Shown here: positions 19,013-39,094 of the stretch, one piece after another
How the letters are laid out: each line of letters opens with the position of its first letter
Position numbering within the stretch: position 1 is the first letter of the stretch
The notes under the pieces: generated by a model
Told to the model about the DNA's origin: nothing
The model's database searches: none
The model's input: only the letters and a program-made list of their open reading frames with translations
Assembly (NCBI GenBank): GCA_001899315.1
Contig: MOYA01000001.1
Span: 3,148,374 to 3,212,373, forward strand
Direction of reading: 5' to 3'
Source: Candidatus Obscuribacter phosphatis
GTDB taxonomy: Bacteria > Cyanobacteriota > Vampirovibrionia > Obscuribacterales > Obscuribacteraceae
DNA: 64,000 nt
Position numbers and translations under genes: made by a program

Positions 19013-19240
19013 ATGCCCCATATAGTCGTGAAACTCTGGCCAGGCAGCACAGAGGAACAGAAGCAGAAGCTTGCCGATGAAATTGTCAAAGCCGGTGCTG
19101 ACATTTTGGGCAAGGGTGACGCCTATTTTTCGGTTGACATAGAAGAAGTCGAATCAACCGACTGGGCCGAGCAAGTCTATAAACCCGAAATAATTGGGCG
19201 TTGGGATAATCTCTATCGCAAACCCGGGTACAAAATGTGA
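19013..19240 (+). CDS. 4-oxalocrotonate tautomerase-family protein
   Basis: A 75-residue protein. The ATG at 19013 is chosen over the GTG at 19007 because it gives Met-Pro, and Pro1 after Met removal is the catalytic base of this family; AAGGTG sits at the right distance. PHIVVKLWPGSTEEQKQKLADEIV matches the family's beta-alpha start. Length is near the usual 60-80. It should catalyse keto-enol tautomerisation; the substrate is unknown. Its stop overlaps the GTG of the lipase gene (GTGA), so the two are co-translated. Confidence 0.85.
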   Translation: MPHIVVKLWPGSTEEQKQKLADEIVKAGADILGKGDAYFSVDIEEVESTDWAEQVYKPEIIGRWDNLYRKPGYKM

Positions 19241-21222
19241 TCTTAAAATTCAAAGCCACAGCAAAGCGAAGCAGCCGCGTAGCTTCGCCAGCATCGCCTA
19301 CCCTTGCCTCTTGCGCTCTAATGTCGGCACTAGTTTCCACTCTCGGTTTGCTGACAATTTTGCCAGCCACAACTGCCCGGGCCCAAGAACTCGACCAAGA
19401 ACCAGACCAAAGCCAACTCCAATCCCAAAGCCAATCCCAAAGCCAAACTCAAACACAATCCCAATCCCACCCCCAAAGCTCTCTTCAAACAGCATCTCAA
19501 TCTACAAGTAAGCCGGACAGCCAAAATGCTGTTCCTCAAAACATCTTCAACCTAGACCTTTGCACTCTCGCCTATCAGCTCTATCATCAGTCTTTGTGCC
19601 TGCCACTCGACCCTTGGTACGACATGATGTCGAGGGTGGGCAGCGACAGACGCGACAATATCTGTCGCTTCACCCACGAATACGCCGCCGCTCTAGGCGC
19701 TCGCCCTAGCTTTTACAGCGGGCCCAATGCCATTCGCGGCTGGGGTAACAGCAATCTCAATTTAGACCCCATTTTGACCAACTATAAAACACTCGACGTC
19801 ACCTTACCCGCTTTTACCCGAGATGGTGAGCGCTATCTGGCAGTTGCGGCACCAGACCATATAACAAAAAACATCAAAACTATCGAAGGCATTCGTTACC
19901 GCTCAAAACCAACAGCCTATCCTCACAACGACACTGAAAGATTTTCAATCAAAGACTATGCAAAAGGCAGCGACCATATAGTAGTTTTTGAAGGCGGCAC
20001 CGGCAGTGATGGCAGTAAAGATCCTTCTTGGAGTCTAATGGGCTTTGTCTTGATGCACAAGACCGCCACCGGATATGATGCTCATATTGTCTTTAGAGGC
20101 AGTCGCAGTGGCGCATCGCTGTCAAAAACAGTCTGGAGAGCGCAGAACATTATCGGCGAGCACAAAGGCAATCCTGATTGGATTACCGACCTGCGCAGCA
20201 ATAGTCAAATAGAGAAACCACTGCTTAGCAAAGTCGGCAAAGTCACTGCCGGCTTTGCTGATTCTTTGCCCACTATGCTTGGTACAATCAGCGCCGCCTG
20301 CCAATATCTTGCGGCGAAATATCCGCCGCCCGAGCATATTTATATAACCGGTCACAGCCTTGGTGCCGGTCTAGCCAGTCAATTCACTGGTGCACTGGCA
20401 CAAGGTGAGTATGGGCAGCAGCTGCGCCAAGAAGTAAATTCATGGGACTGGAATAAAGCGGCTCTGGTGGCTTATGCCCAGCCGATTGCCGGCAGCCCCG
20501 AGTTTGCTCAAAATTTTGACAAGCTGATGCCCAATGCCGAACACTACTGGGTGGAAGGCGACACCGTGGTTGAAGCCACCGAAAACGGCATAGTCGGTCT
20601 TTTGATAGACAAAGGCGAGCACTGCGGCAAACAAATCAAACTAATGCCTGTGGCTAACTGCCAAGACAATGTGCACGAAGTCTTTGTCATTAGAGACGCT
20701 CTGGTGCGCGACTTAGCCAAAAGCCAAACCGAGCTGGCGAGCGCCCTGGGTCAATATAACAGCTGGGGCTATTATCAAACAATGCTCAAGATGCTCGACG
20801 GCAAAGCCGACAACTATGTCTATCCGGGTGCAACAGCCCCTAAACTGGTCACCACTGAAAACTTGCCAAAGATGCTACAGAACTATGCATTTGGGCAAGA
20901 GTTTGCTGCCTGGCTTGAGAATGTCTATGCCCGCATGATCGCCGAAAAGAGTAGCTATATTGGTCCAAAGTTTCAAAGCACCCTTGATGAAAGGAAGCAG
21001 GTTGTACTCGATTTGGTGAAACGTATGCGCCAACCAAGAGAAATAGACGCACTAGAAAGAGAAGCCACTTTGCTGGATGGCAACTTGGGGCTCACCAATG
21101 AAGAGCAGTGGATTTATTGCGGCACGATTCTATCTGAAATTGAAAAGGCAAATCTGCCTCTTCCCGAGCTTTTGACTAAGCCTGCCATCAAGACTAATCT
21201 CGACTCAAAATTTGACGAATAA
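19237..21222 (+). CDS. Exported class 3 lipase-like protein
   Basis: A 661-residue protein with a GTG start overlapping the tautomerase stop. The signal peptide is at about 1-50 (LASCALMSALVSTLGLLTILPATTARA). A Gln/Ser repeat linker occupies about 55-85. The alpha/beta-hydrolase nucleophile elbow is GHSLGAG with Ser374, preceded by IYITGHS, as in class 3 lipases. Asp and His partners are plausible further on (GDTVVEATENG; DNVHEVFV). It probably hydrolyses lipid esters outside the cytoplasm. The C-terminal 150 residues are helical and unassigned. Confidence 0.8.
   Translation: MILKFKATAKRSSRVASPASPTLASCALMSALVSTLGLLTILPATTARAQELDQEPDQSQLQSQSQSQSQTQTQSQSHPQSSLQTASQSTSKPDSQNAVPQNIFNLDLCTLAYQLYHQSLCLPLDPWYDMMSRVGSDRRDNICRFTHEYAAALGARPSFYSGPNAIRGWGNSNLNLDPILTNYKTLDVTLPAFTRDGERYLAVAAPDHITKNIKTIEGIRYRSKPTAYPHNDTERFSIKDYAKGSDHIVVFEGGTGSDGSKDPSWSLMGFVLMHKTATGYDAHIVFRGSRSGASLSKTVWRAQNIIGEHKGNPDWITDLRSNSQIEKPLLSKVGKVTAGFADSLPTMLGTISAACQYLAAKYPPPEHIYITGHSLGAGLASQFTGALAQGEYGQQLRQEVNSWDWNKAALVAYAQPIAGSPEFAQNFDKLMPNAEHYWVEGDTVVEATENGIVGLLIDKGEHCGKQIKLMPVANCQDNVHEVFVIRDALVRDLAKSQTELASALGQYNSWGYYQTMLKMLDGKADNYVYPGATAPKLVTTENLPKMLQNYAFGQEFAAWLENVYARMIAEKSSYIGPKFQSTLDERKQVVLDLVKRMRQPREIDALEREATLLDGNLGLTNEEQWIYCGTILSEIEKANLPLPELLTKPAIKTNLDSKFDE
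19395..19500 (+). repeat. Hexamer-like repeat coding a Gln/Ser linker
   Basis: Runs of CCAAAG and CCAATC words encode alternating Gln-Ser after the signal peptide of the lipase. Such tracts are prone to slippage and vary in length between strains. Confidence 0.7.
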
Positions 21223-21373
21223 ATCGAATCAAAGCCCCCTATCATCTAGAACACAAAATACTTAGCCAGACAAATATCAACCCAAAGCTTTAGCTCTTAA
21301 GCATGATGGCCACCAAGCTCGCCTCTGCCAGACTATTGGCAAAACACTTGCTGACGGAAACGCTGAGGTAAAG

Positions 21374-23221
21374 ATGGGGCATCTAAGCAGTCTACGAAAT
21401 CTACATAATATTGGTGGGCAGAGGCAAAGAAAGCCGCTGCAAGCGCTATTATGTGCCGCGCTTCTGCTCGTCCCCAGTATTGCCGCGACCACACCGGCGA
21501 TAGCCGCAGCCCCACAGGTCAAACAATTGAAAGCGCCAGCAGCTCAGACCCAAGACCGACCAATCAAAGATAAATGGGCGCTGGTTGTGGGCATCAGTCA
21601 GTTTGCCGACAAAGGCATCAACCTAAAGTATCCAGCTAAAGATGCCACCGACTTCTATAATTTTCTTATTGGCCCGGGGCATTTCAGCAAAGACCATGTG
21701 CGCCTATTGACCAACGAAAAGGCTACGCGCGCCAATATCCTGGCCACAATAGGCGACCGCTGGTTGCCGAGGGTGGCTCATCCAGACGACTTAGTGGTGG
21801 TCTATATCAGCAGCCACGGCAGCCCAGCCGACCTTGATGTCGGCGGCGTCAACTATATCGTCGCCCACGATACAGATCCCGAATCGCTCTATGCCACAGG
21901 CATACCTATACAAGACTTGATGCGCATTATCAAGGCGAGGGTGCATTGCGAAAGAGTTGTGATTATCTTAGATGCCTGCCACAGCGGTGCGGCATCGACC
22001 GATAGCAAAGGGCTCTCTCGCACTGCCAACGTCAGTGCCGATGCAGTGGTCGCCGGCACCGGACAGCTGGTTATCGCGTCAAGCAAGCCCGACCAAGTCT
22101 CATGGGAAAGCAAGAACTACCAAAACAGTGTTTTCACATATAGATTAATAGAAGCCCTCAAGCAGAATGGAGGAAAAACACCGCTTGGTGCAGTCTTTCA
22201 AAACATGAAAGACAATGTCGAGAATGAGGTTCTGCGCGACCGTGGTCATATGCAGAGTCCCGAGATGAAGAGCCGCTGGGATGGAAGCGAATTATGCCTG
22301 GCGGCGCCGCCGACCGCGCCGAGGGCGGGTCTTGAACTGCCGGAAGCACTCGATATTACTTCCACTAGCGTTGGCGCTGGGCAAAATAATGCAGGCAGCA
22401 GTCAAAAATCAGAGAGTGCCTCGCAACCGAAAGAGAGACCGCTGCCGCCAAAGACCGTTCTAAATAACGGTAATATTTATCGCGTCTTTAACAGCCCAAG
22501 CAAACCATGTCGCTTTGAAATAGATGGATCGGCGCTTGTCACCTATCTAATGAGCTATCACTGGAACGAAGGTCGAGGAAAAACACCGGGCACACTTAGT
22601 TTAAGACGGGCGGACGGCACTACTTATGGACCATTTCAAACCGAAGGCAAACCTGGTCAAGGCGGTGTGCCTGACGCATACTGGGAATGCCAGCCCATGG
22701 TGACGATTGCACCGGGCAGCTACACTGTGATAGACAGCGACCCGTCCACATGGTCTCAAAACGACCTATCGGGTAATGCTGGCATTGCCAAAGTGAAGGT
22801 GGCACCGGCGAAAAGTACGTCGGTAACTATGCGCAATTTAAAGCGAGAGCCAATCAACACAGTCTTTAACAACGGCAATATCGCCGCGGTCTTCAATCGA
22901 CCAAGTCGTCTCACCTGGTTTAGCATCAAAGCGCCGCTGCTTGTCACCAATATGATGAACTATCACTGGAATGATGCACATGGACAAGACCCTGGTGAGA
23001 TTGGACTGGTACATCAGGACGGTACTATTTATGGACCTTGGCGCACTCATACCGCCCCTGGTCAGGGCGGTGTGCCAAATGCCTATTGGCTATGCGAACC
23101 CGAGGTGGTTCTCAAACCCGGCATTTATATGGTCACCGACAGTGATACCAGCACTTGGTCGCAAAATATTGAAAGCAAAAATCAGGGCATCACCGAAATC
23201 AAAGGTGTCTTTCAAGATTGA
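21374..23221 (+). CDS. Exported caspase-like peptidase (C14) with twin C-terminal domain
   Basis: A 615-residue protein; GAGGTAAAG precedes the ATG. The signal peptide is at about 1-48. The caspase domain spans about 60-290: KWALVVGISQF, then the catalytic dyad His148 in SSHGSP and Cys202 in DACHSGA. It is therefore predicted to be an active cysteine peptidase of the metacaspase/paracaspase type. After a Ser/Gln linker come two tandem copies of about 120 residues (about 355-480 and 495-612), sharing NNGN, YHWN, GQGGVP-x-AYW and DSD-x-STWSQN. That repeat domain is not recognised and may bind a ligand or surface. The caspase core is closely related to the one encoded at 35679. Confidence 0.88.
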   Translation: MGHLSSLRNLHNIGGQRQRKPLQALLCAALLLVPSIAATTPAIAAAPQVKQLKAPAAQTQDRPIKDKWALVVGISQFADKGINLKYPAKDATDFYNFLIGPGHFSKDHVRLLTNEKATRANILATIGDRWLPRVAHPDDLVVVYISSHGSPADLDVGGVNYIVAHDTDPESLYATGIPIQDLMRIIKARVHCERVVIILDACHSGAASTDSKGLSRTANVSADAVVAGTGQLVIASSKPDQVSWESKNYQNSVFTYRLIEALKQNGGKTPLGAVFQNMKDNVENEVLRDRGHMQSPEMKSRWDGSELCLAAPPTAPRAGLELPEALDITSTSVGAGQNNAGSSQKSESASQPKERPLPPKTVLNNGNIYRVFNSPSKPCRFEIDGSALVTYLMSYHWNEGRGKTPGTLSLRRADGTTYGPFQTEGKPGQGGVPDAYWECQPMVTIAPGSYTVIDSDPSTWSQNDLSGNAGIAKVKVAPAKSTSVTMRNLKREPINTVFNNGNIAAVFNRPSRLTWFSIKAPLLVTNMMNYHWNDAHGQDPGEIGLVHQDGTIYGPWRTHTAPGQGGVPNAYWLCEPEVVLKPGIYMVTDSDTSTWSQNIESKNQGITEIKGVFQD

Positions 23222-34473: not shown

Positions 34474-35667
34474 ATGGCAACATTCATCCAACAATTAGCT
34501 TCGATGTCTCAACAACTAGCCCTCGTGTCGGATCCCAAAAACACAATTCGCTTTAGCCCAGATTCGCAGCCGGAAGTGCCTAAGCGCCTGGTTCCGCCGC
34601 ACGTAGAATCACTCAAGCCCTATCAACCCGGTCGCCCACCGGAAGAGCTGAAAAAAGAGCTTGGTATTGAACGCTTCGTCAACATGGCGTCCAACGAGAA
34701 CCCTCTGGGACCGCCGCCATCAGCCCTGGCGGCCATACAGGCCAACCTCACCGAGATCAACCGCTATCCCGACCTCTGCGGCACCAAACTAAGAGAAGCC
34801 CTGGCTGAAAGATTTGCCACCAAGGTGGACAATATCGCCTTGGGCAGCGGCTCTGAGTCGACCATGGCCAATATCATCCGTGCCTTCTTGCACGACGATG
34901 ATGAAGTGCTCACTTCGCAAGGTACATTTATCGGACTCTATGTTCTGGTCAAAGCCCAGGGCATCAAGCTCAATACTGTTCCGCTCAAAAACTATCATTT
35001 CGACCTCGACGCCATCGCCGACGCGGTCACACCCAAGACCAAAATAATCTACCTGTGCAACCCCAATAACCCCACAGGCACAATCTTCACCCGCACCGAA
35101 TTCGAAAACTTCATTCGCAAAGTACCCGAGCATGTGCTCGTCATACTCGACGAAGCCTATTACGAATTCGCCGCTCACAACCCGGAATATCCCGATTCGA
35201 TGCGTTATCGCCTCGACAACGTCTTGACCCTGAGAACTTTCGCCAAAGCCTATGGCATGGCCGGCATCAGATTGGGTTATGGACTCGGTCACGAATATTT
35301 GATTGACTATGTCAACCGCATCAAGCTGCCCTTCGAGCCCAATATTCTCGCTCAGTCAGCTGGTCTTGCCGCTCTCCATGATGACGAGTATCTCGAACAT
35401 ACTCTACTCAACAACGAAGAAGGCATGGCTTACCTAACCGGCGAATTCGACAAGCTCGGTTTGCAGCGCATCCCCTCCTACTCCAATTTCATCATGATTG
35501 AAATGGGCAGCCAGGAGAAAGTGGCTCGTATACACGAAGGACTTCTGCGCCACGGCATCGCTATCAGACCGCTGACAGCCTTTGGACTGCCCACTTGCTG
35601 GAGAGTTTCAATCGGCTTGCCGCAAGAAAACGAACTCCTCATCAAAGCTCTCAAGAACATCCTCTAA
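34474..35667 (+). CDS. hisC: Histidinol-phosphate aminotransferase
   Basis: A 397-residue protein with AAGGAAG before the ATG. It is a class I/II PLP aminotransferase: LKPYQPGRP and NMASNENPLGPPP at the start, NRYPD, LCNPNNPTG, and TFAKAYGMAGIRLGYG with the Schiff-base Lys. The reaction converts imidazole-acetol phosphate to histidinol phosphate in histidine synthesis; many relatives also serve phenylalanine or tyrosine. The N-terminus is about 35 residues longer than usual. No other his gene is nearby, and the HPPD gene 4 kb away hints at aromatic use. Confidence 0.9.
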   Translation: MATFIQQLASMSQQLALVSDPKNTIRFSPDSQPEVPKRLVPPHVESLKPYQPGRPPEELKKELGIERFVNMASNENPLGPPPSALAAIQANLTEINRYPDLCGTKLREALAERFATKVDNIALGSGSESTMANIIRAFLHDDDEVLTSQGTFIGLYVLVKAQGIKLNTVPLKNYHFDLDAIADAVTPKTKIIYLCNPNNPTGTIFTRTEFENFIRKVPEHVLVILDEAYYEFAAHNPEYPDSMRYRLDNVLTLRTFAKAYGMAGIRLGYGLGHEYLIDYVNRIKLPFEPNILAQSAGLAALHDDEYLEHTLLNNEEGMAYLTGEFDKLGLQRIPSYSNFIMIEMGSQEKVARIHEGLLRHGIAIRPLTAFGLPTCWRVSIGLPQENELLIKALKNIL

Positions 35668-35678
35668 CCAGTAGGTAA

Positions 35679-38129
35679 ATGAACAGAGTTTTCAAAAGGC
35701 GAAAGATTGCGTTAAGAGGCAAATCTCTCGCCTTTTGTGTATCTATTTGTGCAGCCCTGAGTTCCTATATATGGATAGCTGGGCAAGCACCGGCGCTGGC
35801 CCAGGTTAGCCTGGTCAACACACTGCTTGATACAGCCCAAATTGAATATAACAAGGGCAGCTATCAGTCAGCTTTATCGGTGAGCGAAAGAGCCCTGGAA
35901 ACAGCCAAAGAGCTAAAGGGTCAACCCTTTTTGCAAGCCAAGGCACTCTTGAATGTGGCCAGCACTCTCACCGCCCTTGGTCGCTACAAAGAAGCAGAAG
36001 AGCACTATAAGAGCTTGATGGCTCTCTTAGAAGCAAACAAGCTTATCTATACCGAGGCAGGACTGCTTGCCTTCAATAACTATGCTTCGCAAGCCCAGTC
36101 GCTCGGGCGTTACACCGAAGCTTCGGCACTTTTGAGCAAGGCCGTTAGCATCGGTGATTCCAGTTTTGGACCACTGTCTATGCAAAACGTGCTGAGCATA
36201 AACAACTTGGCTGCGCTCTATTTAGGTTGGGGCAAGCAAGACGAAGCGGTGCCCCTGATTGAGCGCGCCGCCAAAATTGCCAAAACGCCCAAGGGCAAGA
36301 AATCAATCGCCCTGCCTTATGCTCTCTGTAACGCCGCAAAATTAGCTGAGCTTAGAGGCAATTACAAACAATCGGAAGAACTCTGCCAACAGGCGCTCTT
36401 AGCCACCAAAGCCATTTTCGGCGAAAAGCATCCCTATGTTGCCTTGGTCTACAAAAATGGTCTAGCCCAGACAGCAGTAAAAAACCAAGACTATGAAACC
36501 GCCGAAAAGTATCTTGCTTTTGCCCTAGAAATAGACCAAAAAGCCAACGGTACCGAGTCGCTTACCTATGCCGACACCTTGGTTACTTTGGCAGACATTG
36601 AAAGCAAAGCCGGTAAGTACACCAAAGCCATGGAACACTTAGAAAAGGCGAAAGCCATTTATAAAGCGGTTTTGGCCGGCAACGACACAATCAATTCTAT
36701 TGCCGCAGATGTAACCGAAGGCAGCATAGAAAGCCGCTTGGGCAATTATGACAGTGCCATAGAAAAGCTCAATTCTTCCCTCTTAAAAGTGAAAGCCATA
36801 TTGGGCAACAGTCACATCTTTGTCGCCAAGCTTTATAAAGAAATCGCCGAAGCCGAGTCTTTTCACAATCCTAAACTAGCCACTGAAAGAATCGAGGAGG
36901 CGCTGAACAGCGCCCGCAACAGCGTCGCCAAGACCAATCCAGACTTCATCGACATCGAAAGAACGGCAGGGCGAATCTATCGCCTCGCCGGCATGAACGA
37001 CAAAGCGAGAACCTATCTAGAAGACGCCCTGGCTAATGCTCAAGTTTGTTTCTCAGCAGAATCATTGGCCAGCCTTTCTATTCAAAGAGAGCTAGCCAAT
37101 TTAGAAGAAGACCTTGGCGAGAACCAGAAAGCCTGCGAACGGCTTAAATCTGTAATCAGTCAAATCGAGAAAAATCACGGCGCCGAAAGCCCGCTCTTGA
37201 TAGCAGATCTGCAAGACTTGGCAGAGCTGCAAAAGCGGCTAAACCAGGGTGAGGAAGCACGAGCAAATATAAATCGTGCCGCCGCCCTCTTGGAAAAGAT
37301 GCCGGGAGCAAGCGAACAAACAGCAGTCAAGCTCGATCTCAAGGCTGGTTCCAACAAGCCAATTACAGACAAGTGGGCTCTGGTCGTCGGCATCAGCAAT
37401 TTTAGAGATTCATCCATCAATCTCAAGTATGCCGCCAAAGACGCCACCGACTTTGCTAATTTTCTCACCCAGAAAGCCGGCTTTAAAAAAGACCATGTCA
37501 AATTGCTCTTAAACGATAACGCCACTAGAGACGGTATCATTCGCAACATGGGCGAGAACTGGCTCGGGCGCCTAGCCAACCCAGACGACCTTGTCGTAGT
37601 CTATGTTTCCAGCCATGGCTCACCCTCAAACGATGCCGCCGACGGCGTCAATTTCTTAGTTGCCCATGATACAAATAAAGACAGCTTGGTCTCCACCGGC
37701 ATTCCCATGCAGTGGCTCAGCAAAATGGTGAAAGAGCAAGTTCATTCAAATAGAGTCGTCTTGATTCTAGATGTCTGCCACAGTGCAGCCGCTTCCGGCG
37801 CCAAAGGCTTGATCAAGCAGCCGGCCAATACGCCCGAGACTCTAAAAATCGGCGAAGGACAGCTTGTCATCTGCTCATCCAGCAAAGATCAAGTAAGCTG
37901 GGAGTCAAAGAATTATCCCAATAGCGTCTTCACCCGTAAACTGATAGAAGCCCTGAGCGAGGCACCTCGCCCGGTGACTGAAGCTTTTGAACAAATGAAA
38001 GACGATGTGCAGAAAGAAGTCTTACGAGATCGAGCCAGCCTGCAAACACCAATTCTCTGGAGCAAACAGTGGCTGGGTAGCCCACCCGTACTTTCGGTAC
38101 AGCCGGTGGCACCGAGGCAGGGTCTCTGA
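35679..38129 (+). CDS. Exported TPR-caspase (C14) protein
   Basis: An 816-residue protein starting 12 bp after hisC. A signal peptide or N-terminal anchor is at about 15-42. Some ten TPR units span 45-535 (YQSALSVSERALETAKEL, YKEAEEHYKSLMALLEA). The caspase domain is at about 555-800: KWALVVGISNF, catalytic His646 in SSHGSP and Cys700 in DVCHSAA. The TPR array probably senses or recruits partners that gate the peptidase, as in TPR-CHAT systems, but that is analogy. It is followed 8 bp downstream by a kinase gene. The core is very similar to the caspase at 21374. Confidence 0.9.
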   Translation: MNRVFKRRKIALRGKSLAFCVSICAALSSYIWIAGQAPALAQVSLVNTLLDTAQIEYNKGSYQSALSVSERALETAKELKGQPFLQAKALLNVASTLTALGRYKEAEEHYKSLMALLEANKLIYTEAGLLAFNNYASQAQSLGRYTEASALLSKAVSIGDSSFGPLSMQNVLSINNLAALYLGWGKQDEAVPLIERAAKIAKTPKGKKSIALPYALCNAAKLAELRGNYKQSEELCQQALLATKAIFGEKHPYVALVYKNGLAQTAVKNQDYETAEKYLAFALEIDQKANGTESLTYADTLVTLADIESKAGKYTKAMEHLEKAKAIYKAVLAGNDTINSIAADVTEGSIESRLGNYDSAIEKLNSSLLKVKAILGNSHIFVAKLYKEIAEAESFHNPKLATERIEEALNSARNSVAKTNPDFIDIERTAGRIYRLAGMNDKARTYLEDALANAQVCFSAESLASLSIQRELANLEEDLGENQKACERLKSVISQIEKNHGAESPLLIADLQDLAELQKRLNQGEEARANINRAAALLEKMPGASEQTAVKLDLKAGSNKPITDKWALVVGISNFRDSSINLKYAAKDATDFANFLTQKAGFKKDHVKLLLNDNATRDGIIRNMGENWLGRLANPDDLVVVYVSSHGSPSNDAADGVNFLVAHDTNKDSLVSTGIPMQWLSKMVKEQVHSNRVVLILDVCHSAAASGAKGLIKQPANTPETLKIGEGQLVICSSSKDQVSWESKNYPNSVFTRKLIEALSEAPRPVTEAFEQMKDDVQKEVLRDRASLQTPILWSKQWLGSPPVLSVQPVAPRQGL

Positions 38130-38137
38130 CAAACTCG

Positions 38138-39094
38138 ATGAAGAAAGCTAGTTCGCGTCTGCGTATCAACGAGGGGCAAACTTTCGCCGGGCGTTATCGC
38201 ATTCTTGAGCGAATTGGGCGCGGGGGCTTGAGCGTAGTCTATAAGGCAGAATGTCTTGAAGATCAAAAACTTGTGGCGGTCAAGCTTTATCTGCCCAAGC
38301 TCAATCTAGACTTTGAAAAGGCTCAAAATTTGGCGAGCAGCAATGCCGACCTAGATAAGCGCATCGTGCCCCTCATCGAATTTGGTTTTGATGAACCGGC
38401 AAAATTACACTATGCCGTCATGCCCTATATACAAGGGCAGACCCTAACCGATCTAATCTTGCTAAAGGGGCGCCTAGACGAAGGCGAAGCCGTACTCTTC
38501 CTCACCGAAATAGCTTCGGTGATCAAAGCCGCCCACGACTGCGGTATCACCCATGGTGACATAAATCCAGGCAATATTATCATCTGCGAAACAAGAGAAG
38601 CCGAAGCTCCGGTACTAAAGCTAATTGACTTCGCTGTTCATAGCACCGAAAACACAGAGCTGATTGGCTCACCTTCTTTTATGAGCCCAGAGCAGTGTCA
38701 GGGCAAGGTAGGCGGCAAGGCAAGCGATATTTATGCCTTAGGTTCCCTCTTGTACTATTTAGTAACCGGCAATCCGCCCTTTCAAGAAGCAACGGCCGAA
38801 GCGATCATCTTAAGTAAGCTGGCCGGCAAGCATCCGCCCTTTGAAGCCATGCCTTTCACGAGCCACGTGAAAAGCATTTTCCGCCGCACTCTCAAAAGGA
38901 AAAAAGAAGAGCGCTATGAGAGTGTCGATGAACTCCTGCAAGATTTAGCCTTAGCCAAAGGTTCAATAAACATTGAAAACGCTCAGTTAGCCAAGGGGCA
39001 TGAAAAGAGACTACCGCCCCAGCTAAAGATTGCCATGCTGCTTGCTTTGGCTTGTATCGCCTATGCCATGGTCAACCTCATAGGTAGGCACTAA
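38138..39094 (+). CDS. Ser/Thr protein kinase with C-terminal membrane anchor
   Basis: A 318-residue protein. The Gly-rich loop is RIGRGGLSVVYKA, the ATP-binding Lys is Lys49 (VAVK) and the catalytic loop is HGDINPGN (Asp141), so it is a non-RD kinase with Gly in place of Arg. The DFG motif is changed to DFA (164-166). APE-like SPEQ and DIYALGSLLYYLVTG are present. A hydrophobic helix at about 294-313 would anchor it in the membrane. It is probably co-transcribed with the TPR-caspase gene, so it may act in the same signalling path. Confidence 0.87.
   Translation: MKKASSRLRINEGQTFAGRYRILERIGRGGLSVVYKAECLEDQKLVAVKLYLPKLNLDFEKAQNLASSNADLDKRIVPLIEFGFDEPAKLHYAVMPYIQGQTLTDLILLKGRLDEGEAVLFLTEIASVIKAAHDCGITHGDINPGNIIICETREAEAPVLKLIDFAVHSTENTELIGSPSFMSPEQCQGKVGGKASDIYALGSLLYYLVTGNPPFQEATAEAIILSKLAGKHPPFEAMPFTSHVKSIFRRTLKRKKEERYESVDELLQDLALAKGSINIENAQLAKGHEKRLPPQLKIAMLLALACIAYAMVNLIGRH

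Follow-up and report, generated by a model that had tools for sequence, protein, structure and literature searches.

In the window, i.e., the whole 64,000-nucleotide stretch of DNA analysed here (contig MOYA01000001.1) from Candidatus Obscuribacter phosphatis, an uncultured member of the Obscuribacterales related to cyanobacteria, a gene encoding an exported TPR-caspase is directly followed by a gene encoding a membrane-anchored protein of the Ser/Thr kinase fold. This compact arrangement raises the question whether both products take part in one process, and which process that might be. A preliminary description of the locus had likened the pair to programmed-death or defence signalling, and had proposed the TPR region of the caspase as a candidate substrate of the kinase.

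Gene organization and the encoded proteins

The caspase gene (35679-38129, + strand, 816 amino acids) and the kinase gene (38138-39094, + strand, 318 amino acids) are separated by 8 nt (38130-38137), which confirms the spacing of eight bases given in the preliminary description. They are preceded by a hisC-like gene for a class I/II aminotransferase (34474-35667, + strand; TIGR01141 hisC above cut-off), the stop codon of which lies 11 nt upstream of the caspase start; order and strand are shared with G001 and G002, the two other species of the genus that were compared with the own genome (G000). On basis of this close, co-directional spacing, hisC, caspase and kinase likely constitute a transcription unit, of which hisC is the probable first gene. 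Counts of internal promoters and terminators were at the level of shuffled sequence and thereby uninformative, so that it is from the gene arrangement that we infer co-transcription. The genes around the caspase-kinase pair are metabolic.

The export and the domain composition claimed previously for the caspase were borne out. Its N-terminus resembles a Sec signal peptide (residues 1-41; 35679-35801, + strand), with an AxA cleavage site (APALA before the predicted cut and QV behind it) that is kept in three species, reading APVQA and APVFA in the orthologues. A kinesin-light-chain-like TPR solenoid follows (residues about 46-540; 35814-37298, + strand), as predicted by a TPR_12 match (Pfam, 5e-56), an all-helical structure model, and PDB matches among which the TPRs of kinesin light chain were the most similar. 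The C14 caspase domain (residues 565-795; 37371-38063, + strand) matches Peptidase_C14 (PF00656) at 4.5e-24 and 85.8 bits, versus a Pfam cut-off of 21.4, and has an intact catalytic dyad, His646 in SSHGS and Cys700 in DVCHSA, which is invariant across 16 homologues. Metacaspase-1 (4F6O) and metacaspase-4 are the closest solved relatives; when the whole protein was used for a PDB fold search, the matches were essentially TPRs and other structures of helical repeats, and the structure model is good in the TPR region and poorer in parts of the C14 domain. An Asp two positions before the catalytic Cys is typical of metacaspases that cleave after Arg or Lys, and the DxC motif suggests this specificity for the present protein. 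Moreover, a crude hydropathy rule classed 94 of the 97 complete caspases of the family as exported, versus 47% of other genes, and this contrast is strong even though the rule overcalls, as the latter figure illustrates.

The second protein displays a Pkinase match (PF00069, Pfam) at residues 20-268 (5e-31, 108.5 bits), and its structure model (pLDDT 87.6) adopts the PknA/PknB fold, with PknB, Stk1, and PknA as best Foldseek matches. The membrane anchor, the non-RD loop, and the DFA motif of the preliminary description were all retrieved. A single C-terminal transmembrane helix (residues about 297-315; 39026-39091, + strand) is predicted by hydropathy and corresponds to a helix at 294-316 in the model, leaving about 3 residues beyond it, on the outside. 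The catalytic loop reads HGDINPGN (38552-38575, + strand), in which H139-G140-D141 replaces HRD and N143 replaces the catalytic-loop Lys, and D164-F165-A166 (38627-38635, + strand) stands for DFG. Besides, the alphaC Glu is changed to Leu65, and the activation loop is about 13 residues short. Given that the alphaC Glu and the DFG Gly are gone and the activation loop is shortened, the kinase of G000 and G002 is most likely a nucleotide-binding regulator with weak or no catalysis. As the VAIK Lys49, the catalytic Asp141, Asn146, and the DFG Asp164 are retained, some kinase activity is possible, and HGD loops also occur in active kinases of the aminoglycoside-phosphotransferase type.

Most kinases of the family have HRDxKPxN at the catalytic loop position, and of 30 own-genome kinases sampled with a simple pattern, 28 have HRD and 28 have DFG. 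When 50 family genomes were searched for HGDxNPxN, the loop was detected, as far as kinases of this type are concerned, only in the cassette kinases of G000, G001, and G002 and in one TPR-kinase of G029. The latter (L272, G029:C266) contains DFG, its C-terminal region is TPR-like, and no match to a caspase model was obtained in its 3-kb locus. The loop HGDINPGN is shared by G000 and G002, and the G001 orthologue has HGDLNPGN but has kept the alphaC Glu as well as DFG; HGD and the Asn thus characterize the whole genus, and DFA and the loss of the Glu are confined to G000 and G002. As judged from these sequences, the decay of the kinase is an event within the genus, in which the most distant species, G001, has DFG and Glu intact and the two closer species have lost both. 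The dN/dS values of G000 versus G002 (0.024 and 0.043 for the two genes) point to purifying selection on both, with synonymous distances that are already high between these species and, for the kinase, saturated relative to G001.

Conservation of the pair and the meaning of adjacency

Adjacency of the two genes, the conservation of which in relatives the preliminary description had named as its criterion, gave a mixed picture: it was found in the three species examined of the genus, in a block that is syntenic across G000, G001, and G002, and not outside the genus, neither the kinase orthologue nor the pair being found among 33 other family genomes. Identities to G000 in G002 and G001, respectively, are 96 and 60% for the caspase, 90 and about 42-45% for the kinase, and 99 and 94% for hisC. 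Beyond the genus, the caspases closest in sequence (G009, G014, G022, and G005; 37-39% identity) lack a co-directional kinase as neighbour, and the homologue of G009 has a divergent kinase beside it. In G001, a gene for an exported TPR protein (L133:6298-7272) directly follows the cassette kinase, and it is absent from this position in G000 and G002.

These patterns are compatible with neighbours that share transcription only, members of two expanded families that met in the ancestor of the genus and do unrelated work, an explanation that we regard as possible, albeit on the unlikely side. Synteny of the block in all three species and the lack of a downstream kinase in the nearest homologues beyond the genus agree with it, as does the abundance of both families, since the own genome holds 95 Pkinase matches (a few kinases counting as two matches) and 12 C14 matches. 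Kinases fill about 3% of the gene positions near caspases. For the counts that follow, about 90 caspase loci of the family were gathered on account of their similarity to the window caspase, a simple longest-ORF rule served to assign neighbours, and duplicated loci (L129, L132) and G002 copies were left out. With orthologues included, kinases occupied 10 of 173 positions directly beside caspases versus 20 of 691 positions at a distance of two to six genes (P = 0.058). Without the orthologous copies of G001 the former count was 8 of 169 (P = 0.18), and upon removal of both own-genome tandems as well it was 6 of 163 (P = 0.44). Enrichment beside caspases was therefore rejected as proof of linkage, being not significant once orthologues were collapsed, and kinase-caspase adjacency is about what such a density of kinases yields. 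The features of the genes themselves are not due to chance, and their adjacency alone is unremarkable. Chance is countered by the tight spacing, which was kept despite divergence to 60% (caspase) and about 42-45% (kinase) identity alongside a hisC at 94%, and by the existence of further co-directional kinase-caspase tandems. Separately, caspase genes were seen to form tandem arrays, with two to four members each, at L176 and L181 (G001) and at L221 (G012).

A second tandem in the own genome (G000:C1:257668-261415) also bears on the adjacency question. It comprises a kinase with intact HRD and DFG followed by another TPR-caspase, and the same kinase-then-caspase order occurs in G001, G002, G006, G027, G061, G030, G060, and G013, spanning three genera (g1, g5, and g12). 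Like the cassette, it pairs an exported TPR-caspase with a co-directional membrane Ser/Thr kinase; unlike the cassette, it has the reverse order, an HRD/DFG kinase with an extracytoplasmic tail, another TPR region, and a position within a larger syntenic block. The genes on its flanks, among them those for a methyltransferase-aminotransferase fusion and for a short-chain dehydrogenase, have been conserved along with the pair, so that this tandem belongs to a longer block and is by itself not evidence of a two-gene unit; its value as a sign of pair-specific linkage across genera is weakened accordingly. The block (L125:3682-13631, G000:C1) is syntenic in three genera and contains genes for a Metal_resist-like protein, an unknown 426-amino-acid protein, the kinase, the TPR-caspase, the fusion protein of 1065 amino acids, which has a layout like that of methionine S-methyltransferase, and the short-chain dehydrogenase.

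Membrane topology and candidate functions

In the topology deduced from the signal peptide and the position of the C-terminal helix, an exported caspase and a cytoplasmic kinase domain lie on opposite sides of the membrane. That the kinase directly phosphorylates the TPR region, as had been suggested earlier, is therefore unlikely, since the reaction would have to cross the membrane. Together with the export contrast in the family (94/97 versus 47%), the opposite locations favour an envelope protease with a co-expressed regulator on the cytoplasmic side. As the most likely reading, at about even odds, we regard the locus as a lineage-specific accessory operon in which an envelope protease is accompanied by a regulatory (pseudo)kinase, and as no dedicated death or defence system. 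The intact dyad, the pattern of losses in the kinase, purifying selection on both genes, the presence of the pair throughout the genus and its absence beside the nearest caspase homologues elsewhere, and the metabolic neighbours without PADLOC matches agree with this reading. In the corresponding model, a caspase-fold protease would be exported by Sec, as read from its signal peptide, and its TPR solenoid would bind protein targets and present them, either in the periplasm or on the surface of the cell, where the protease may cut after Arg or Lys with a metacaspase-like His/Cys dyad, as its motifs suggest. The co-directional kinase gene would provide a tail-anchored protein with its kinase domain toward the cytoplasm, and this (pseudo)kinase could tune an envelope process in which the protease is involved, leaving the protease itself unmodified. 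What the sequences themselves display is the gene order, the motifs, the topology signals, and the decay of the kinase within the genus; the activity and specificity of the protease, the loss of activity of the kinase, and a function in common are what we infer here; a joint process in particular is suggested by gene order, within a region that is syntenic anyway.

A transmembrane signalling pair, in which the exported TPR-caspase senses or cuts outside and signals to the kinase via its membrane helix or via another protein, e.g., the exported TPR protein of G001, appears unlikely. The kinase is unusually small, since among some 90 own-genome kinase frames only about 5 are this short and most have long extra regions, and a separate exported protein could stand in for a lost sensor; the G001 gene immediately 3' of the kinase and the second tandem kept in three genera fit such an arrangement. 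However, the kinase of G000 exposes only about 3 residues on the outside, which offers no obvious part to bind or cut, the decay of the kinase speaks against catalytic signalling, and the G001 gene is missing from the locus in G000 and G002. The broader proposition that Obscuribacterales recurrently pair exported TPR-caspases with membrane Ser/Thr kinases for proteolysis-coupled transmembrane signalling, with the present cassette as its pseudokinase version, seems to us quite doubtful.

Finally, the anti-phage or programmed-death module implied by the preliminary description, with the kinase triggering the caspase, is highly improbable: both domains recur among the effectors of conflict systems predicted for bacteria (PMC7159879, PMC8195603), and there are a weak match to a PADLOC caspase model and broad matches to PADLOC kinase models, but the membrane separates the exported caspase from the cytoplasmic kinase, the kinase matches (PD-T4-6, MAD6, PglW, and others) reflect the generic kinase fold, the defining conflict-system partners (NTPase, EACC1) are not beside the genes, no defence genes lie nearby, the ten neighbouring genes having no PADLOC match at 1e-10, and the pair is inherited in a syntenic metabolic region, not in a mobile island.

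Significance and relation to known systems

The pair is real, limited to the genus, and built from two known kinds of protein, and as a system claim it is ordinary. If both proteins act jointly, the pair would connect an exported caspase-fold protease with a kinase on the other side of the bacterial envelope, and the decay within the genus would provide a natural series that leads from an active kinase to a pseudokinase. For now, the pair mainly documents the extent of the expansion of exported caspases and kinases in Obscuribacterales, and it cautions against inferring a system from adjacency alone when the neighbours belong to families as expanded as these. A literature search for a described kinase-caspase pair of this kind returned none, an absence that is weak evidence.

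The caspase shares with prokaryotic orthocaspases and metacaspases that contain TPRs the C14 domain and the His/Cys dyad in SSHG and DxCHS motifs, and differs from known metacaspases by its kinesin-light-chain-type TPR array of about 500 residues. According to the portion of PMC3501461 considered here, fusion to TPRs and an N-terminal helix or signal are common in bacterial metacaspases, nearly half of which occur in predicted operons with varied partners; that portion mentions no kinase as an operon partner of a metacaspase. The kinase resembles PknB/PknA-type Ser/Thr kinases in its fold and in the membrane helix behind the kinase domain, and differs from these by HGD with Asn for Lys, DFA, the missing alphaC Glu, a short activation loop, and the lack of an extracytoplasmic sensor.

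Elsewhere in the window, a second caspase gene, encoding an N-terminal caspase domain, lies 151 bases behind a class-3 lipase gene on the same strand (19237-23221), in an order kept in G002 (L135); this arrangement may be compared with the VMAP conflict systems, from which caspases with alpha/beta-hydrolase neighbours are known (PMC7159879). The same source describes EACC1-caspase, which, like the cassette, consists of two genes, one encoding a single membrane helix and the other a caspase. The cassette caspase scores 92.6 bits with the model of EACC1-associated caspases, well below its cut-off of 140 bits, and the cassette differs from that system in that the partner is a kinase and not EACC1, and in that its caspase domain is C-terminal and exported.
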